Positions 6,757 to 53,905 of a DNA stretch of 64,000 bases are shown piece after piece. Location: NCBI RefSeq assembly GCF_002115805.1, contig NZ_JFKC01000001.1, positions 1 through 64,000 on the forward strand, read 5' to 3'. The stretch's first letter is position 1; every line of letters starts with the position of its first letter. The stretch comes from Marivita geojedonensis (lineage in GTDB: Bacteria; Pseudomonadota; Alphaproteobacteria; Rhodobacterales; Rhodobacteraceae). Made by a program: the position numbers and the translations under genes. The notes beneath the pieces are model-generated. The model did no database searches, had not been told where the DNA came from, and saw only the letters and a list, made by a program, of their open reading frames with translations.

Positions 6757-8355
6757 ATGACATTTGGACGGGTGAACCCGGAATTCCGGCTGGAAGATCA
6801 ACAGATCAACGGGCTTGGTAATGTCTATTACAACCTCACAGAGCCTGCTCTGATCGAAGCAGCGCTGAAACGCGGCGAAGGTACGCTGGGCAATGGCGGG
6901 GCTTTCCTTGTCACCACCGGCAAGTTCACCGGCCGGTCCCCCAAGGACAAGCACGTGGTCAAGACCGACAGCGTCGCGGACACGATCTGGTGGGAAAACA
7001 ACGCGCCGATGTCGCCAGAAGGGTTCGATGCGCTCTATGCCGACATGCTCGAGCACATGAAGGGCCGCGAATACTTCGTGCAGGATCTGGTTGGCGGTGC
7101 CGACCCCAAGCACTCCATCGACGTGCGCTTCATTCAGGAACTGGCGTGGCACAATCTGTTCATCCGCCACATGATGCGCCGCCCGGAACGTGAAGACCTC
7201 GACAGCTTCACCGCCGACTTCACCGTCATCAACTGCCCATCCTTCCAGGCAGACCCAAAGAAGCACGATTGCCGGACCGAAACCGTGATCGCGATGAATT
7301 TCGACAAGAAACTCATCCTGATCGGCGGCACCGAATACGCCGGTGAGAACAAGAAATCGATCTTCTCGCTGCTGAACTACCTGCTGCCGGAAAAAGGCAT
7401 CATGCCGATGCACTGCTCGGCCAACCACGCGGTCGGCAACCCGGTCGATACAGCGATTTTCTTTGGCCTCTCGGGCACTGGCAAGACCACGCTCTCGGCT
7501 GACCCGAACCGTATCCTGATCGGGGATGACGAACATGGCTGGTCCGACCGCGGTACCTTCAACTTCGAAGGCGGTTGCTACGCCAAGACGATCAACCTGT
7601 CGGCGGAAGCCGAGCCGGAGATCTACGCAACCACCACCAAATTCGGCACCGTGATCGAAAACATGGTGTTCGATCCGGAAACCTTCGAGCTGGATTTCAA
7701 GGATGACAGCCTGACAGCCAACATGCGCTGCGCCTACCCCCTCGAATACATTTCGAACGCGTCATCGACCGCGCTTGGCGGGCATCCGAAGAACATCATC
7801 ATGCTGACATGCGATGCATTCGGCGTTCTGCCGCCGATCTCGCGGCTGACACCGGCGCAGGCGATGTACCACTTTCTGTCCGGGTTCACCTCCAAGGTCG
7901 CTGGAACAGAACGCGGTGTAACAGAACCGGAACCCACCTTCTCGACCTGCTTCGGCGCACCGTTCATGCCCCGCCGTCCAGAAGTCTACGGCAACCTGCT
8001 CCGCGAAAAGATCGCGTCGCACGGTGCAACCTGCTGGTTGGTCAACACCGGCTGGACCGGTGGCGCTTATGGCTCTGGCGAACGGATGCCGATCAAGGCA
8101 ACCCGTGCCCTGCTGACCGCAGCGCTCGATGGCAGCCTTGCCGAGGCAGAATTCCGCAAGGATCCGAACTTCGGCTTCGAAGTGCCGGTCAAGGTCGAAG
8201 GCGTGCCGGACATGCTGCTCGACCCGCGTCGCACCTGGAACGACAAAGACGCGTATGACGCACAGGCAGAAAAACTCGTTCAAATGTTTGCCGACAACTT
8301 TGCGCAATACGTGCCGTATATCGACGACGATGTGAAAGCGGCCGCGATCGGTTAA
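6757..8355 (+). CDS. pckA: phosphoenolpyruvate carboxykinase (ATP)
   Basis: A 532-aa cytosolic enzyme converting oxaloacetate and ATP to phosphoenolpyruvate and CO2, the gluconeogenic exit from the TCA and EMC cycles. The kinase-1a P-loop [14 protein letters not shown] is near residues 236-249, the kinase-2 region [10 protein letters not shown] follows, and [10 protein letters not shown] near the N-terminus binds the substrate. LVNTGWTGG near the C-terminus is also conserved. Length is typical. AGGAG precedes ATG 6757. A strong terminator follows at 8389. Confidence 0.97.
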
Positions 8356-8388
8356 ACCGCCTGCGTCGAAAGGCGCTTGGAAAAAACA

Positions 8389-8430
8389 GGGCGAGCGCAC
8401 CATACTCCGGTGCACTCGCCCTTTGTTTTT
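8389..8430 (+). terminator. rho-independent terminator of pckA
   Basis: A 13-bp stem with one mismatch, GGGCGAGCGCACC (8389-8401) against GGTGCACTCGCCC (8409-8421), with a 7-nt loop and a T-rich tail CTTTGTTTTT. Confidence 0.88.
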
Positions 8431-8508
8431 CTGCGGACGCAAGGTGTTACGCGCTGCACAGCAGCAATTCAACGCGAAAGATTGAAACAATATTCGATCT
8501 CTTTGGGT

Positions 8509-8519
8509 ATTTTTGTTGC
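8509..8519 (+). promoter_or_regulatory. EMC-type promoter element upstream of mcd (one mismatch)
   Basis: ATTTTTGTTGC lies 53 bp before the mcd start. It differs at one position from AAT-NN-TGTTGC, the reverse complement of the GCAACA-NN-ATT element found upstream of ccr, ecm and mcl2. CCTGCAAAA follows about 8 bp downstream. Its functional role is inferred. Confidence 0.35.
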
Positions 8520-8571
8520 GCTGCACCTGCAAAATGGCTATCCAGCGCCAAAGCTGAAAAGGACACGATTC

Positions 8572-10260
8572 ATGGCCCATGATGGACAAGACCTGACCCT
8601 AACCACCGAGACGATCCTGCCGGACCTGCTGAAACTGACCGCCGCAGCGGTCGAACCAGCGAATGCCATTCTTGATCTGGCCAACAGCCGCGTCCGTGCG
8701 ATGGTCGAGTCCGACGGTCGCGTGTCCGGCGCACTGATCGAAGAAAACCAGACAGCGGCGCACGGGCTGGCTTGGCTGGCCACCTATGTCGAATCGCTGC
8801 GCCAGATGCAGGGCTGGGCCGAACGTCTGGAGGCCGACGGAAAGTTCGGAGAGGTGGAACAACTGATCCACCAGATCGCCTTTGGAGAATACCTCTGGCA
8901 GATCTACGGCGGCATCCAGATGAACCAGGGCGAAGTGGTCCGCCTTCAGGACATCGGCCTGAGCCAGGACGACATGGGCGCGCTGATGACGCCCGAGGTC
9001 ATGCAGCTGACACAAGGCGGCAACACCCAGGCCGCCCGTGTCCGTCTTGTCGAACTCATGCAGGAACGCAGCGCAGAGCTGACCGTCGGGGCCTGCGGCC
9101 TTGACGATGAGCTCGACATGATCCGCGAACAGTTCCACCGCTTCTCTCTCGACAAGGTGGAACCCTTTGCCCACGAATGGCACCTCAAGGACGAGCTCAT
9201 CCCGATGGAGATCATCGAAGAGCTGTCCGAGATGGGCGTCTTCGGCCTGACGATCCCGGAGGAACACGGTGGGTTTGGTCTCTCCAAGAACTCCATGTGC
9301 GTGGTCTCCGAAGAACTGTCGCGCGGCTATATCGGTGTCGGGTCCCTTGGCACACGGTCCGAGATCGCGGCAGAACTGGTGATCGCGGGTGGCACGGAAG
9401 AACAGAAAGCCAAGTGGCTGCCGGGCCTCGCCTCCGGTGAAATCTTGCCCACCGCTGTCTTTACCGAACCGAACACCGGCTCCGACCTTGGAAGCCTGCG
9501 GACCCGCGCGGTCAAGGATGACAACGGCGATTGGATCATCAACGGCAACAAGACCTGGATCACACACGCCGCCCGCACGCATGTGATGACCGTTCTTGCC
9601 CGAACCGTTCCCGACACCACCGATTACCGTGGATTGTCCATGTTCCTTGCCGAAAAGACACCCGGCACCGACGAACAGCCCTGGCAGGATCCAGGCATCT
9701 CGGGCGGTGAGATCGAAGTCCTCGGTTATCGCGGCATGAAGGAATACACGCTCAACTTCGACGATTTCAAAGTGAAGGGCGAGAACCTCCTGGGCATGGA
9801 AGAGGGCAAAGGCTTCAAGCAGCTCATGGAGACGTTTGAATCGGCCCGCATCCAAACCGCCGCCCGTGCCATCGGCGTCGCGCAATCGGCCCTCGATGAA
9901 GGGATGAAATACGCGCAGGACCGCAAGCAGTTCGGCAAAGCACTGATCAACTTCCCGCGCGTCGCGTCGAAACTGGCGATGATGGCGGTTGAGCTCATGA
10001 TCGCGCGTCAGCTGACCTACTTCTCGGCCCGCGAAAAGGACGAAGGCCGCCGCTGCGACCTCGAAGCCGGTATGGCCAAGCTGCTCGGCGCCCGCGTCGC
10101 CTGGGCCGCAGCCGACAATGCGCTGCAGATCCACGGCGGCAACGGCTTTGCCCTTGAATACAAGATCAGCCGCATTCTGTGCGACGCGCGCATCCTAAAC
10201 ATCTTTGAGGGCGCTGCCGAGATTCAGGCCCAGGTCATTGCCCGGCGGCTGTTGGGCTGA
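8572..10260 (+). CDS. mcd: (2S)-methylsuccinyl-CoA dehydrogenase
   Basis: A 562-aa acyl-CoA dehydrogenase-fold flavoprotein with an N-terminal extension of about 170 residues before the canonical domain. That architecture is the hallmark of Mcd, which oxidises (2S)-methylsuccinyl-CoA to mesaconyl-CoA in the EMC pathway. The core shows FGLTIPEEHGGFGLS, TEPNTGSDLGSLRTRA, NGNKTWITHAA, the QDRKQFGKAL region and the ending LQIHGGNGFALEYKISR. ATG 8572 follows AAAAGGA; an upstream in-frame extension to 8377 would overlap the pckA terminator and is rejected. The presence of ccr, ecm, mch and mcl2 in this window supports Mcd over a generic acyl-CoA dehydrogenase. Confidence 0.88.
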   Translation: MAHDGQDLTLTTETILPDLLKLTAAAVEPANAILDLANSRVRAMVESDGRVSGALIEENQTAAHGLAWLATYVESLRQMQGWAERLEADGKFGEVEQLIHQIAFGEYLWQIYGGIQMNQGEVVRLQDIGLSQDDMGALMTPEVMQLTQGGNTQAARVRLVELMQERSAELTVGACGLDDELDMIREQFHRFSLDKVEPFAHEWHLKDELIPMEIIEELSEMGVFGLTIPEEHGGFGLSKNSMCVVSEELSRGYIGVGSLGTRSEIAAELVIAGGTEEQKAKWLPGLASGEILPTAVFTEPNTGSDLGSLRTRAVKDDNGDWIINGNKTWITHAARTHVMTVLARTVPDTTDYRGLSMFLAEKTPGTDEQPWQDPGISGGEIEVLGYRGMKEYTLNFDDFKVKGENLLGMEEGKGFKQLMETFESARIQTAARAIGVAQSALDEGMKYAQDRKQFGKALINFPRVASKLAMMAVELMIARQLTYFSAREKDEGRRCDLEAGMAKLLGARVAWAAADNALQIHGGNGFALEYKISRILCDARILNIFEGAAEIQAQVIARRLLG

Positions 10261-47443: not shown

Positions 47444-49305
<1,862 letters not shown>

Positions 49306-49665
49306 ATCCTCGACCTTTGAAGATAAGTGCCCCGTGGATCACCACGGGGCATTTTTTTGTGCCCCGTTCTCTTGCGACCCGGAACATCAGGCCAATGGCG
49401 GGACAGCCAAGATCGCTTGGGGCAAATCATCCGACGCTCCCTTTTCCCAGCATCCAACGCCGCACCTGATCTGACAGGTCCCGTGCACGGGCTGAAACCG
49501 CCCAAAAGCGCGGCAAAACCTGCCGAGCAGCTGCAGGTCAGCGGCGTTCTTGTGCAAATAAAGCCACAATAGCCGCGTGGGACCCCCCGAACAGCGCACC
49601 AAAACTGTCTTTCGGCATGCCGATATGCATGAATCAAGGAGAACGGCAGGTTAACGAGGCAGATA
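49306..49665. other. intergenic region downstream of mdh
   Basis: Apart from the mdh terminator, about 300 bp contain no supported gene. An 81-codon rightward frame at 49327 starts inside the terminator and is not credible. Near 49637 there is AAGGAG without a following start. The 3' part must hold the promoter of the mini-ORF/ATP-grasp pair. Confidence 0.5.
49328..49358 (+). terminator. rho-independent terminator of mdh
   Basis: Perfect 10-bp stem TGCCCCGTGG (49328-49337) / CCACGGGGCA (49342-49351) with ATCA loop, followed by seven Ts. Confidence 0.93.
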
Positions 49666-49755
49666 ATGATCGATTTGCGCAGTAGAGCTGTATCCAGCGA
49701 CAACCTCACGTTCCCTTCGAACGGACGGCACCTTGGCCGCGTGGCGGCGGCATGA
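49666..49755 (+). CDS. 29-codon mini-ORF overlapping the ATP-grasp gene start
   Basis: ATG 49666, preceded by GAGG at about 7 nt, opens a frame beginning MIDLRSRA and ending GRVAAA. Its TGA at 49753-49755 overlaps the ATG of the ATP-grasp gene (ATGA). The ATP-grasp gene has no Shine-Dalgarno of its own, so this mini-ORF probably delivers ribosomes to it. It may be a leader peptide, a substrate peptide, or the true N-terminus displaced by a frameshift. Confidence 0.5.
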   Translation: MIDLRSRAVSSDNLTFPSNGRHLGRVAAA

Positions 49756-51872
49756 AGGACTTTCTGTCTCAGAGCGGCGCCGATACGGGTACGGTAGAGG
49801 ACACGCTTGCCACCTATCACCGGATGTTCCGGCCCTATTTCGAAGAATATGCCGGTCTCGAAACAAACACGTACGACGTGTCGTCCTCGACCGACGTCAA
49901 GGAAATGGTCCGTGCTGCACGCGCACATGGGCTGGACGTTCACGCTTTCCCGAGCCTTCCCGCACGCCACCTTGTCCTGAGCGACGGCACACGCGAGATC
50001 GGGTTTGCGGCCGCGCAGCCAAGTTGCATGAAACCGGTCCTGACCAATTTCTGCGATGACAAGCTGCTGCAGAAAACGTTCTACAAGGAAAATGGCATCC
50101 CTCACGCCGAAGGACATGAAGTCCGGTCTCTGGAGCATGCGCTCGAGAGCCGTCGCTCACTCGCAGAGTCCGTCGTCCTGAAACCGTCCCGAGGCCGTCA
50201 GGGCCTTGGAGTGACCGTTGGAATCCGAGATGACGAAACACTGATACGCGCATGGAATTTCGCCCGCGAGGAGCGGTCTCAATCCCCGATAATGATGGAA
50301 GAGACGTTCGTCGGATGTGACCTGCGCGCCTTCATCCTGAACAAGGAAGTCATTTGCGCCTATCTGAAGATCCCCCCGAATATCCTGGGTGACGGTCGCT
50401 CGACGATTGCGGAACTGGTCGATGCAAAGAATGCCCGCCGTCGCCAAAGCCCGGCGCTGCGTGTCGCATTGATCAAGACCGATGCCAAATCAGAGCAGCT
50501 TCTTGAATTCCAGGGATTTGATATGGGGTCCATCCCTGCGAACGGAGAACCGGTTCTGCTGGGTTTGACGCAAAGCGTCAGTTCAGGTGGCGATCTGCTC
50601 CCGATCAACGGGCGATTGTCGAAGCCGGTAAACACCGTTGCCTGCTCTGTGGCGAAAGCGCTGGGATACACCGGACCGCCTGGCATGGATGTCCTGTGCC
50701 GCGATTTCGAAAAAGACACCGGAAGCGCAATCATCTGCGAGACAAATCCTCAGCCCGCCATGTTTGGCGCGTTGTATCCACCGGTCGGAAAATCCGTGGA
50801 CTGCCCGGAACAGATAATGCGCCATTACTTCGGCGCCCGCCGCAAAACTGTGAAACCAAAAGACATCCGGATCCGTTGCGAAGGCGCCGAGGAGATCGAG
50901 TTGGAGGCGTTCTGCGACTCTTACGCAGAGTCCGGTGCAAACGGAAAATTGCTACGGAAAACCGGCCCGCAGGAACTGACGATCGAAGGGACAGGCAGCG
51001 ACGTTTCAATGCTGCTGAGCACGCTGCTCGACAGCAAGAAAAAGCCGAAATTCATCGACGCGGCCTATGTCCTGAAACCCCTGAAAAAGAAGAAAGCCGC
51101 CAAGAGCGCGATCCCTCTTGAACGCCCCGGCGACACAGCATGTCCCGCGTCAGAATTCGCAAAGATCGCCTGTATGTCTTCTCTGTCCAAGCAGGCGGAT
51201 ATTTTGGACGGCAACCTCATTTGTCTGACAAAGACGCGAAAGAGAAAGTTTGTTTCGGCGCAGCTGAATGGCTGGTTTGCAGAAGCACATTCCAGTCTTC
51301 TGGGCCGCAGCAGATTGCGCCACAGGTTCGCCCTGCATGGTCTGCCCCTCAAACGGGAACTGATCCTCGAGCCAAAAGACGTGCGCGGCCTCAGACGAGC
51401 TGTTGCACGCTTCAAGAAAGACTGCACCGTCACCCTGATCGCACGATCGAACATCCAGTCCAAAACCATCGTTTCGAACGCGGACGAAGCCAGCGATCTT
51501 CTGTCCAGAGAGGTGAACAACCGTACCAAGCTGGTCTGTGTGTCGCCAAATGAAGACACGACACAGATGTCGCTCCTCGTATTCGACGGAAGTCTGGTCG
51601 CAGCCACCCAAGACTCAGGCACGGAATGCGACACGCTCCATGCAGAATGGGCGCAGGTCGCTTCGGCGTGCCTCGATGCGCTTCCAAGTGCCCGGCTGAT
51701 GTCCGTGAAGGTTCATATGGAAAACCCCCAAGACGCCCCCGACAACCAGACCTGGGCCATCGACAGCATCGACACGAACCCCGACATCGCTCACTTCGGA
51801 ACGCGCGTGGCGAACCCCAAGGGTGCGTTCGCGAAAAAACTCGTCGCAGCGCTCTTGGATAGCACCATCTAG
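49752..51872 (+). CDS. tandem ATP-grasp protein (CphA/GshF-like N-terminal module, degenerate C-terminal module)
   Basis: A 706-aa protein without a family I can name. Residues about 90-365 form an ATP-grasp module. K108 is in LLQKTFYKENGIPHA and K144 in VVLKPSRGRQGLGV. MMEETFVGCDLRAFI (181-195) is followed by PPNILGDGRSTIAELVDAKN, then VSSGGDLLPINGRL, GPPGMDV (D313) and CETNPQPAMFG (E330, N332). The GDG-ST and SSGG blocks match cyanophycin synthetase and GshF-type ligases, so ATP-dependent peptide/amide bond formation is likely. Residues about 372-442 have the size and strand-helix rhythm of an acylphosphatase-like fold. Residues about 505-700 resemble a second ATP-grasp copy that keeps IDTNPDIAHFG but lacks the glycine-rich loop and key lysine. 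The gene sits alone between mdh and sucC, starts by overlap with a mini-ORF, and its lysine/serine-rich stretches differ from its neighbours. Confidence 0.8.
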   Translation: MKDFLSQSGADTGTVEDTLATYHRMFRPYFEEYAGLETNTYDVSSSTDVKEMVRAARAHGLDVHAFPSLPARHLVLSDGTREIGFAAAQPSCMKPVLTNFCDDKLLQKTFYKENGIPHAEGHEVRSLEHALESRRSLAESVVLKPSRGRQGLGVTVGIRDDETLIRAWNFAREERSQSPIMMEETFVGCDLRAFILNKEVICAYLKIPPNILGDGRSTIAELVDAKNARRRQSPALRVALIKTDAKSEQLLEFQGFDMGSIPANGEPVLLGLTQSVSSGGDLLPINGRLSKPVNTVACSVAKALGYTGPPGMDVLCRDFEKDTGSAIICETNPQPAMFGALYPPVGKSVDCPEQIMRHYFGARRKTVKPKDIRIRCEGAEEIELEAFCDSYAESGANGKLLRKTGPQELTIEGTGSDVSMLLSTLLDSKKKPKFIDAAYVLKPLKKKKAAKSAIPLERPGDTACPASEFAKIACMSSLSKQADILDGNLICLTKTRKRKFVSAQLNGWFAEAHSSLLGRSRLRHRFALHGLPLKRELILEPKDVRGLRRAVARFKKDCTVTLIARSNIQSKTIVSNADEASDLLSREVNNRTKLVCVSPNEDTTQMSLLVFDGSLVAATQDSGTECDTLHAEWAQVASACLDALPSARLMSVKVHMENPQDAPDNQTWAIDSIDTNPDIAHFGTRVANPKGAFAKKLVAALLDSTI

Positions 51873-52187
51873 CGGGTTGCCCGGCGCGAATGGAATGGCC
51901 CAAACATGCGCTTGTCCTGCGCGCAGCGCCCTGCAGAATGGCAGGAATCCTTGGCTGAACCCGCGCGCAACCGACGATGAAACCAAGAGATTCGGGTGTG
52001 ATCACTCCGCATGCCGCACCTGCATCGCCCCTTCTCGGCCCAAATGTGATCACACGATTTTTCACTGTGATCACAAATGTCGCTTTTTTCGCGTCAGAAG
52101 GCCGGTGCGGCAAAAAAACCGTTAAGTGTTCCGAAATCACCCTCTTATATCGCCGCAAATCGCAGCAACAAACGGGACAGTTGACCG
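51873..52187. promoter_or_regulatory. sucC promoter region with three TGTGATCACA-type sites
   Basis: 315 bp without a gene. TGTGATCACT lies at 51997-52006, and TGTGATCACA at 52045-52054 and 52066-52075. The last two are 21 bp apart and 113-143 bp before the sucC start, matching the sdhC promoter layout. Both promoters also carry an oligo-A/CCG tract about 30-36 bp downstream of the sites. TTATAT near 52144 could be the -10. No obvious terminator for the ATP-grasp gene was seen. Confidence 0.72.
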
Positions 52188-53381
52188 ATGAACATTCACG
52201 AGTATCAGGCGAAAGCCCTGCTACGCAGCTACGGCGCTCCGGTGTCGGATGGCCGCGTGGTTCTGAAAGCCGAAGAGGCGAAGACCAAGGCGGGCGAAAT
52301 GGACGGGCCGCTCTGGGTGGTCAAGGCACAGATCCACGCCGGTGGCCGCGGCAAGGGCACCTTCAAGGAAGAAAGCGCCGGTGAAGCCGGTGGCGTTCGC
52401 CTTGCCAAGTCGGTCGAAGAAGCTGCCGATGAAGCCAAGAAGATGCTCGGTCGTACGCTGGTCACAAAGCAGACCGGCGAAGCGGGCAAGCAGGTCAACC
52501 GTATCTACATTGAAGACGGATCTGGCATCCAGACCGAGATGTATCTCGCGCTGCTCGTCGACCGTCAGACCTCGCGCGTGTCTTTTGTTGCCTCGACCGA
52601 AGGCGGCATGGACATCGAAGAGGTTGCCGAAAGCACACCCGAGAAAATCCTCAGCTTCTCCGTCGATCCGGCCACCGGCTATCAAGCCTTCCACGGTCGC
52701 CGCATCGCCTTCAACCTCGGCCTTGAAGGCAAGCAGGTAAAACAGTGCGTTCAGCTGATGGGCACGCTCTACCAGCTCTTTGTCGACAAGGACATGGAGA
52801 TGCTCGAGATCAACCCGCTGATCATCACCGATGAAGGCGATCTCAAGTGCCTCGACGCCAAGATGGGCTTCGACGGCAACGCCATCTACCGCCACCCGGA
52901 AATCGCAGAACTGCGCGATGAGACCGAAGAGGACCCGAAAGAGCTCGAGGCCTCCAAATACGACCTCAACTACATCGCGCTGGACGGTGAAATCGGCTGC
53001 ATGGTGAACGGCGCGGGCCTTGCCATGGCGACGATGGACATCATCAAGCTCTACGGTGCAGAGCCTGCCAACTTCCTCGACGTGGGCGGCGGTGCGACCA
53101 AGGAAAAGGTCACCGAGGCATTCAAGATCATCACCTCCGACCCGAACGTCAAAGGCATCCTCGTCAACATCTTCGGCGGCATCATGCGCTGCGACGTCAT
53201 CGCCGAAGGCGTGGTCGCCGCGGTCAAAGAAGTTGGCCTTAAGGTGCCGCTGGTTGTGCGTCTCGAAGGCACCAATGTCGAAAAGGGCAAGGAGATCATC
53301 AACACCTCCGGCCTCGACGTGATTGCCGCCGACGACCTCAAGGATGGCGCACAGAAGATCGTGAAGGCGGTCAAGGGCTGA
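52188..53381 (+). CDS. sucC: succinate-CoA ligase (ADP-forming) subunit beta
   Basis: A 397-aa ATP-grasp subunit that binds nucleotide and succinate. The N-terminus is [19 protein letters not shown]. Nucleotide binding lies in [12 protein letters not shown], metal-binding residues in LEINPLI, and the C-terminal CoA-ligase domain has [15 protein letters not shown]. Length is standard. First gene of the suc operon. Its stop shares a base with the start of the next gene. Confidence 0.97.
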
Positions 53382-53905
53382 TGAAACGGGCTGGCTGGAT
53401 AACCGCAATCGCACTTGCGGCCGTCCCGGGCTGGGCCTTCGCCGGACCGTTTGACGATCCGGCGGATGCGGGCGCTTTGATCGGAGAGGCATGTGTCACC
53501 ACATCGCTGGACTTCGATGCGCTCTTCGCGTCGGCACAGGAACTCGCATCCGCCGCAGGGTTGCCGCAGGTGATGGCCTCGGACGAGGCCGCCATGTTCG
53601 GCAATCCCGGTGGCGCACATGTGGTGTTCTCGCGCCGGATAGACTCGATGGCCTGCCAGCTCAACATCCCGCCCGACCCCGGAACCGAGGCGTTCTTCAC
53701 CGACCTGCGCGACATCATGCAGGCCCGGATCGACGCGACCTACCCCCGTGCGCTCTCGGACGAGATGGACAAACCATCGCCGCACGAGGCCGCACACCAG
53801 TGGGTCTTCCGCGTCCCCAAGGAACGCCACTTCGCCGTCTCACACAGCTGGATCCGTGACAGAGGGGTCTCCCTCTCGGTCGGGTACAGCCAGATTTACG
53901 AATAA
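53381..53905 (+). CDS. hypothetical secreted protein between sucC and sucD
   Basis: A 174-aa protein with signal peptide ([21 protein letters not shown]). The mature part begins [10 protein letters not shown], has cysteines in GEACVTTS and MACQLNIP, and ends [12 protein letters not shown]. No known domain. ATG 53381 overlaps the last base of the sucC stop (TGATG), so it is translated with sucC. Placement of an exported protein between the two ligase subunits is odd. Confidence 0.82.

Follow-up and report, generated by a model that had tools for sequence, protein, structure and literature searches.

A tandem ATP-grasp gene of Marivita geojedonensis, a predicted amide or peptide ligase with a degenerate second module, in the variable mdh-sucC interval

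Introduction

The described systems closest to the protein studied here combine an ATP-grasp domain with different partners: a Mur ligase in cyanophycin synthetase (CphA1), a glutamate-cysteine ligase half in GshF/GshAB and an acetyltransferase (GNAT) domain in N-acetylglutaminylglutamine (NAGGN) synthetase. In CarB, both ATP-grasp domains are catalytic. We analysed a stretch of 64,000 nucleotides from Marivita geojedonensis (contig NZ_JFKC01000001.1, positions 1 to 64,000; hereafter the window), in which a forward-strand gene at 49752..51872 encodes a protein of 706 aa, P0001, with two ATP-grasp modules in tandem. The first-pass annotation of the window had placed this open reading frame (ORF) between mdh and sucC, and it does lie there; its extent is supported by the frame and by orthologues. 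We assign a probability of roughly 0.62 to the reading that P0001 is an amide or peptide ligase in which module 1 catalyses and module 2 is an inactive ATP-grasp partner, encoded by an exchangeable cassette of the mdh-sucC slot.

In the open literature, with subscription literature outside the search, nothing was found joining ATP-grasp with acylphosphatase and cyanophycin, ATP-grasp with an acylphosphatase domain, or tandem ATP-grasp with a pseudo-domain. In the retrieved portions of the records on two or multiple ATP-grasp domains, CarB appeared with its two domains in one chain (PMC11915815) and otherwise nothing on such proteins; the corresponding portions on ATP-grasp with CapA, poly-gamma-glutamate or Mur ligase held nothing new on them.

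A conserved and a degenerate ATP-grasp module

Module 1 (residues 102-347, limits set by domain profile; 50055..50792, forward strand) resembles known peptide ligases. The NCBIfam model for cyanophycin synthetase matches residues 79-364 (5.6e-43; 147 bits against a cut-off of 877), that for NAGGN synthetase matches at 2.1e-32 (112 bits against 569), and two GshAB matches are confined to module 1 (3.6e-31 and 2.8e-19; 108 against 425 and 69 against 656 bits). Nine sequences of the Protein Data Bank also match (2.8e-26 to 5.6e-18; cyanophycin synthases, GshAB, a 'glutathione synthase' and a RimK-domain protein), and the C-terminal ATP-grasp half of GshAB aligns to residues 101-360. The ATP-binding Lys, hinge acids, metal-binding Asp/Glu and Asn of ATP-grasp enzymes are all kept, the marked residues being K104, K144, E183/E184, R192, D313, E330 and N332. 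The available part of the TeCphA1 description names Lys220, Lys261, Arg309, Arg323, Asp431, Glu450 and His267 among its residues for ATP, Mg and substrate (PMC9427784), and a motif alignment would pair Lys220, Lys261, Arg309, Asp431 and Glu450 with K104, K144, R192, D313 and E330. The basic chemistry thus looks kept, with two CphA residues exchanged (see below). The family and structure matches and the conserved residues bear out an active-looking module of the CphA/GshF type, as first annotated, and they support ATP-dependent amide ligation as its likely chemistry.

P0001 is nevertheless none of these enzymes. Its identification as CphA, GshAB or NAGGN synthetase was rejected, since all scores are far below the cut-offs and the defining domains are missing. 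With the G domain of CphA1, module 1 shares the fold class, ATP lysines, metal Asp/Glu and Asn, but P0001 has no Mur ligase match in Pfam and its second module is a degenerate ATP-grasp. Likewise, it lacks the glutamate-cysteine ligase half of GshF/GshAB and has no GNAT match in Pfam. It also differs from CarB: no carbamoyl phosphate synthetase (CPS) model of Pfam matches at E up to 1, and a single CPS-like NCBIfam model reaches only 0.031, below its cut-off. The N-terminal region (residues 1-101; 49752..50054, forward strand) can partly be aligned with the corresponding region of single-module ATP-grasp relatives.

Module 2 (residues 506-690; 51267..51821, forward strand) has no Pfam match in the window copy, and among solved structures the C-terminal half matches only designed barrels, at 0.02. 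When a profile of the three copies in the genus (the window's and those of genomes G303 and G306; we denote genomes and loci by G and L numbers) was compared with one of 41 ATP-grasp domains, the first lobe matched at E 9.1e-6 with a score of 43.2, which none of 200 column shuffles reached (maximum 28.6). Adding the corresponding module of a more distant relative, G171, brought E to 2.7e-8, again with 0/200 shuffles. The end of the module separately matches the ATP-grasp-acylphosphatase protein of G288 (E 1.8e-5) and a sequence of G002 (E 8.6e-5). Aligned to module 1, Lys144, Asp313, Glu330 and Asn332 fall on T561, K653, S672 and D674, and the GDG-bearing lid segment is gone. In none of the three genus copies does module 2 keep the lysine, hinge acids, catalytic Glu or lid; Ser replaces the catalytic Glu in two of them and Ala in one, and the metal Asp, retained in G303, is lost in the other two.

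The degenerate second ATP-grasp proposed earlier is therefore upheld by the profile-profile result and the lost residues, as is the statement that the domain order belongs to no named family, in that no Pfam or NCBIfam family covers it. A terminal DTNP...FG, taken for a retained motif, does not correspond to the catalytic E-x-N, whose site in the alignment reads S672-I673-D674; the motif overlaps that site by its D only, and DTNP is DADP in G303. Having lost its ATP lysine, catalytic residues and lid, module 2 probably neither binds ATP nor catalyses, and it would likely be a fixed partner for substrate binding or positioning, or for cohesion of an oligomer.

The modules are joined by a linker (residues 371-442; 50862..51077, forward strand) that had been annotated as possibly acylphosphatase-like. 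Acylphosphatases rely on a catalytic Arg in the VQGVGFR loop, plus an Asn. At this position, Pfam recognises acylphosphatase domains in two single-module relatives, G288 and G565 (1.8e-16 and 1.4e-21), with the VTGVGYR/VQGVGFR and WVRN motifs present; we found no family name for these fusions. They share with P0001 the order of ATP-grasp followed by acylphosphatase and a similar N-terminal part, but they have one module only, and their acylphosphatase Arg and Asn motifs are those that the P0001 linker lacks. Pfam finds no acylphosphatase in the window's linker or in the short relatives L003 and L021. A whole-protein profile alignment with G288 extends from module 1 into the linker (E 1.7e-17). 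The linker alone gives a 23-column local match to the true acylphosphatase domains of G288 and G565 that exceeds 198 of 200 shuffles at an hhalign probability of 3.4%, while their global alignment gave no result. A low-confidence model folds it as b-a-b-b-a-b (mean predicted local distance difference test, pLDDT, 35). The linker is possibly acylphosphatase-derived: position and local match make the annotation plausible, but the probability of 3.4% supports it weakly and the catalytic loop is gone.

A variable slot between mdh and sucC

The ATP-grasp gene lies between mdh (48343..49305) and sucC (52188..53381), both on the forward strand. We surveyed this interval in 120 genomes of the family, including the window's own, of which 116 yielded mdh and 114 sucC. 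Among the 115 other genomes with mdh, 97 carried the two no more than 20 kb apart on the same contig and strand; the remaining 18 had no typed sucC (n = 5; in G030 a partial one on another contig) or had the two genes on different contigs (n = 9), on different strands (n = 2) or far apart (n = 2). The gaps fall into two classes, of 123-481 bp in 44 of the 97 genera and of 894-9914 bp in the other 53, so the mdh-sucC interval (49306-52187 in the window) is a variable gene slot. Literature searches on the slot gave nothing relevant in titles and the beginnings of abstracts.

From the 53 filled intervals we took 71 cargo ORFs (56 of 67 by codon score and 15 by length), some of which are probably spurious and none of which comes from G014. 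Glyco_tranf_2_4 was the most frequent family (n = 17), followed by M20-type peptidases (n = 5) and Imm11, Nucleotid_trans and Sulfotransfer_2 (n = 2 each). The remaining families occur once each and include capsule, GT61 and hydrolase types; no integrase is among the 25 of 31 Pfam families listed. Within the genus, the slot holds a GT61 plus methyltransferase gene in six genomes (three by Pfam, the rest by length and sequence start), a 253-255-aa ORF of no assigned family in two (one of which was scanned) and, in one genome each, a GT2/GT92 gene, an unassigned ORF with FkbM, and a coiled-coil-like ORF. Two genomes have no gene-sized insert (about 400-490 bp), and three have the tandem ATP-grasp gene. 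In G304, mdh and sucC are not adjacent and occupy separate contigs; they are likewise split between contigs in G305 and G306, at contig ends.

Such cargo raises the possibility that module 1 tailors surface glycans by linking an amino acid through an amide bond to polysaccharide carboxyl groups, such as those of uronic acids, as proposed for sugar-associated ATP-grasp proteins. Glycosyltransferases are the commonest identifiable cargo, sulfotransferases, capsule and GT61 types accompany them, and GT61, GT92 and FkbM types recur in the genus. In addition, the single-module relative of G565 is located near glycosyltransferase and TupA-like ATP-grasp genes and passes the cut-off of ATPgrasp_ST, a model for sugar-associated ATP-grasp proteins (33.1 against 31.4 bits). 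P0001 itself, however, matches ATPgrasp_ST only at E 0.091, below the cut-off, its strong matches being peptide ligases. The cargo is also heterogeneous, with M20 peptidases, Imm11 and hydrolases, and location is therefore weak evidence for a glycan role. We regard glycan tailoring as unlikely, though it is the most credible of the alternatives that we weighed.

The ATP-grasp gene is not confined to the window. Seven of 17 genomes of the genus match P0001 and three, including the window's own, hold full relatives. The orthologues of G303 (55% identity; 54% for the Marivita sp. S6314 record) and G306 (66%, cut by the contig start) both sit directly 5' of sucC. With orthologues in two of 16 other genus genomes, and a distant two-module relative in G171, the idea of a gene standing alone is not supported.

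At synonymous sites, these alleles are far more diverged than their flanks. In the comparison of the window with G306, the ATP-grasp gene has a synonymous divergence (dS) of 2.06, and mdh, sucC, TSUP and a small ORF have 0.22-0.45; with G303 it is 3.7 against 0.59-1.28 for six neighbours. NG86 estimates of dS saturate above 1, and in mdh and sucC dS is depressed by codon bias, which leaves the magnitude of the effect uncertain. As controls outside the tricarboxylic acid cycle, we used TSUP and the small ORF. The values nonetheless disfavour simple vertical descent within the genus. In a tree of mdh and sucC, the window and G306 are sisters (support 78) and G303 pairs with G296 (support 100), which holds other cargo in its slot. 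The GC content at third codon positions (GC3) of the ATP-grasp gene is 0.67, against 0.71-0.83 in six neighbours. This pattern suggests that diverged cassettes have been exchanged through the slot, perhaps by recombination in the conserved flanks. The gene had been proposed as possibly acquired, which is supported in the sense of an exchangeable cassette in a slot that is filled in 53 of 97 genera.

Carriage by phages or plasmids was rejected: none of the 124 plasmid and nine phage records that match P0001, nor any of the 127 plasmid records that match the G171 protein, covers 80% of the query, and viral contigs yielded no relative. A role in anti-phage defence was rejected too, as P0001, L005 and a 1329-aa relative described below have no PADLOC match at 0.01.

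A patchy (3/17) and fast-diverging cassette of deviating GC3, whose linker and module 2 outpace module 1 in divergence, might also be a decaying or selfish gene with no function that matters to the host. Yet its frame is open in two full copies and in a third cut by a contig start, the active residues of module 1 are conserved, and nonsynonymous divergence (dN) is well below dS in the genus relatives, with dN/dS of 0.05-0.29 in the segment pairs where it could be computed (dS is saturated, and some segments were not computable). We therefore consider decay quite improbable.

Beyond the genus, full-length relatives are scarce. A full-protein search found matches in 38 of 295 family genomes, none full length except the window's own, and among the matches whose locus was fetched only G171 has a second module. 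A C-terminal profile retrieved no other full relative from 394 family genomes (28 matching at E up to 1; own copy 1.1e-191, next 7.7e-4) or from 289 class genomes (21 matching; next 9.1e-4). It also missed G171, probably present in the family set, so the profile is insensitive and the absence of further relatives is weak evidence. The G288 protein matched 177 of 289 class genomes, many through the acylphosphatase part alone; among the matches listed, the G565 protein alone matches both parts with a high score. Two further profile searches, in 200 genomes of the phylum and 200 of the class, gave 36 and 25 matching genomes at 1e-10, the own genome being counted in both; they brought in G739 and G796, described below. 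The window's own genome encodes a second CphA-like ATP-grasp protein of about 660 aa (G000:C20:42279-42977; L038), a length class that is common among the family matches.

Distant relatives and possible function

The 803-aa protein of G171 has the same layout: an ATP-grasp module at 118-364 is followed by a linker and, at 550-773, by another ATP-grasp that is degenerate (independent E-value, i-E, 3.8e-9). Its module 1 groups with those of P0001 and G303 in a domain tree (support 96). It differs in keeping a GDG-containing lid in module 2 and in the gene that precedes it, which scores 270 bits against a cut-off of 243 with one D-alanine-D-alanine ligase (Ddl) model, 198 against 246 with another, and passes both Pfam Ddl models. 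The two ORFs overlap by 19 bp with a TTG start or are 44 bp apart with the first ATG. The view that the gene lacks functional neighbours thus fails for this relative, which directly follows a Ddl-type ligase. Judged by ORF starts, no mdh or sucC lies in the 19 kb retrieved at the G171 locus.

Proteins with CphA-like ATP-grasp modules in series also occur in G739 and G796, two genomes of one genus outside the window's class. In G739, a 1329-aa protein (L275:5988-9974) has intact-looking modules 1 and 2, a module 3 with K-V-S for E-x-N, and then an acylphosphatase domain, and a 944-aa protein (L276:6942-9773) has a module 1 with G-L-H, an intact-looking module 2 and again an acylphosphatase. A 1019-aa protein (L277:5362-8418) combines an intact-looking module 1, a module 2 with D-V-R and a module 3 interrupted by assembly Ns, which also break an 886-aa protein of this set. 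Counted from the stop codon, the 1329-aa gene starts 45 bp after an ORF for an Asp/Glu racemase. The distance is 50 bp for the 1019-aa gene, which follows an ORF of 1608 aa (L277:485-5308) that combines PGA_cap with the middle and C domains of a Mur ligase. Six multi-module CphA-like proteins could be read over two complete modules (P0001, G303, G171, two of G739 and one of G796; the multi-hit frames read in G739 and G796 leave out an 856-aa frame on contig 15 of G796); in each of the six, exactly one module looks inactivated and one or more look intact. Acylphosphatase is fused in the two G739 proteins and in the single-module G288 and G565 relatives.

The lid of G171 and the two intact modules beside a degenerate one in the 1329-aa protein could be taken to mean that both modules of P0001 are catalytic, module 2 acting in trans or as a second nucleotide site, as half of a two-step peptide synthase. 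Set against the residues and lid missing from module 2 in all three genus copies, and the metal Asp gone from two, this is the least probable of the readings weighed.

Under the preferred reading, with module 1 as the only catalytic site, P0001 would belong to the CphA/GshF branch of the ATP-grasp superfamily and act as an ATP-dependent carboxylate-amine ligase. Its module 1 would turn a carboxylate into an acyl phosphate, which an amine then attacks to give an amide or peptide bond, as its conserved residues and the known chemistry of the family indicate. The ancestor of the linker may have been an acylphosphatase domain, which in the two single-module relatives could hydrolyse misformed acyl phosphate. 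The gene would be one of many interchangeable cassettes in the mdh-sucC interval of the family. Judging by the neighbours of the distant relatives, the enzyme would most likely make a small peptide or else an amino-acid or peptide amide destined for a cell-surface polymer; together with the slot cargo, these neighbours only hint at a link to D-amino acids or surface polymers.

Several observations weigh against this reading. In module 1, the motif alignment puts K206 and Q150 in place of Arg323 and His267 of TeCphA1 (PMC9427784, available part). With a threshold of i-E 0.01, the general ATP-grasp profile does not pick up module 2 in the Marivita copies (G303 gives 0.11 and 0.12), so the homology of this module rests on the profile-profile tests; the sole structure model, a full-length AlphaFold prediction, is poor (mean pLDDT 35). 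The homology of the linker to acylphosphatase is weak, and the G171 protein has no NCBIfam acylphosphatase match at 1e-5, its linker having had no dedicated search. No partner gene adjoins the ATP-grasp gene, the cited neighbour genes belong to distant relatives (25-30% identity where measured), and the G171 gene is complete in only one of 21 genomes of its genus. Lastly, the domain tree, whose deep nodes are weak (59-74), draws the G739 and G796 modules with short ATP-grasp proteins and not with P0001.

More speculatively, and at a level that we consider improbable, the multi-module proteins could be small template-free assembly lines, in which each intact module forms one amide bond, the inactivated module holds or carries the chain and the acylphosphatase discards wrong acyl phosphates. 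The Marivita-type gene would then be a minimal form that lost editing and spread via the mdh-sucC slot. If the dead module were a carrier and the acylphosphatase an editor, this would be a new route to peptides without ribosomes or carrier proteins. The mdh-sucC interval, for its part, could serve as a model for the swapping of cell-surface and accessory genes among related marine bacteria.

Two further arrangements were seen among ATP-grasp loci. At L070, overlapping and opposite ATP-grasp ORFs (7100-8374 and 8327-9676), one of them an acylphosphatase fusion, lie beside glycosyltransferase and TupA-like ATP-grasp genes. In other genera, 1102-aa ORFs (L209:5258-8566 and L210:3339-6647) combine a CphA-like ATP-grasp with an N-terminal part that by eye resembles adenylation enzymes.

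Other features of the locus

The ATP-grasp gene starts 446 bp past the mdh stop codon. A strong terminator-like hairpin of 13 pairs with a T run follows mdh (49325..49354, forward strand), and the ATP-grasp gene is therefore probably a separate transcription unit. No sigma-70-like promoter was found between 49200 and 52250, and no RNA element at E up to 1 between 47000 and 55500.

On its sucC side, the slot has two TGTGATCACA palindromes with a spacing of 21 bp (52045..52075), which are located at -143 and -122 of sucC and may form an operator. They occupy the same positions in all 16 genus genomes examined, a set that excludes G305, with a one-base variant at one site in G304.

Downstream, a 174-aa ORF lies between sucC and sucD (53381-53905), and a 161-aa ORF occupies the equivalent place in Marivita sp. 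S6314 (L044:11550-12035).

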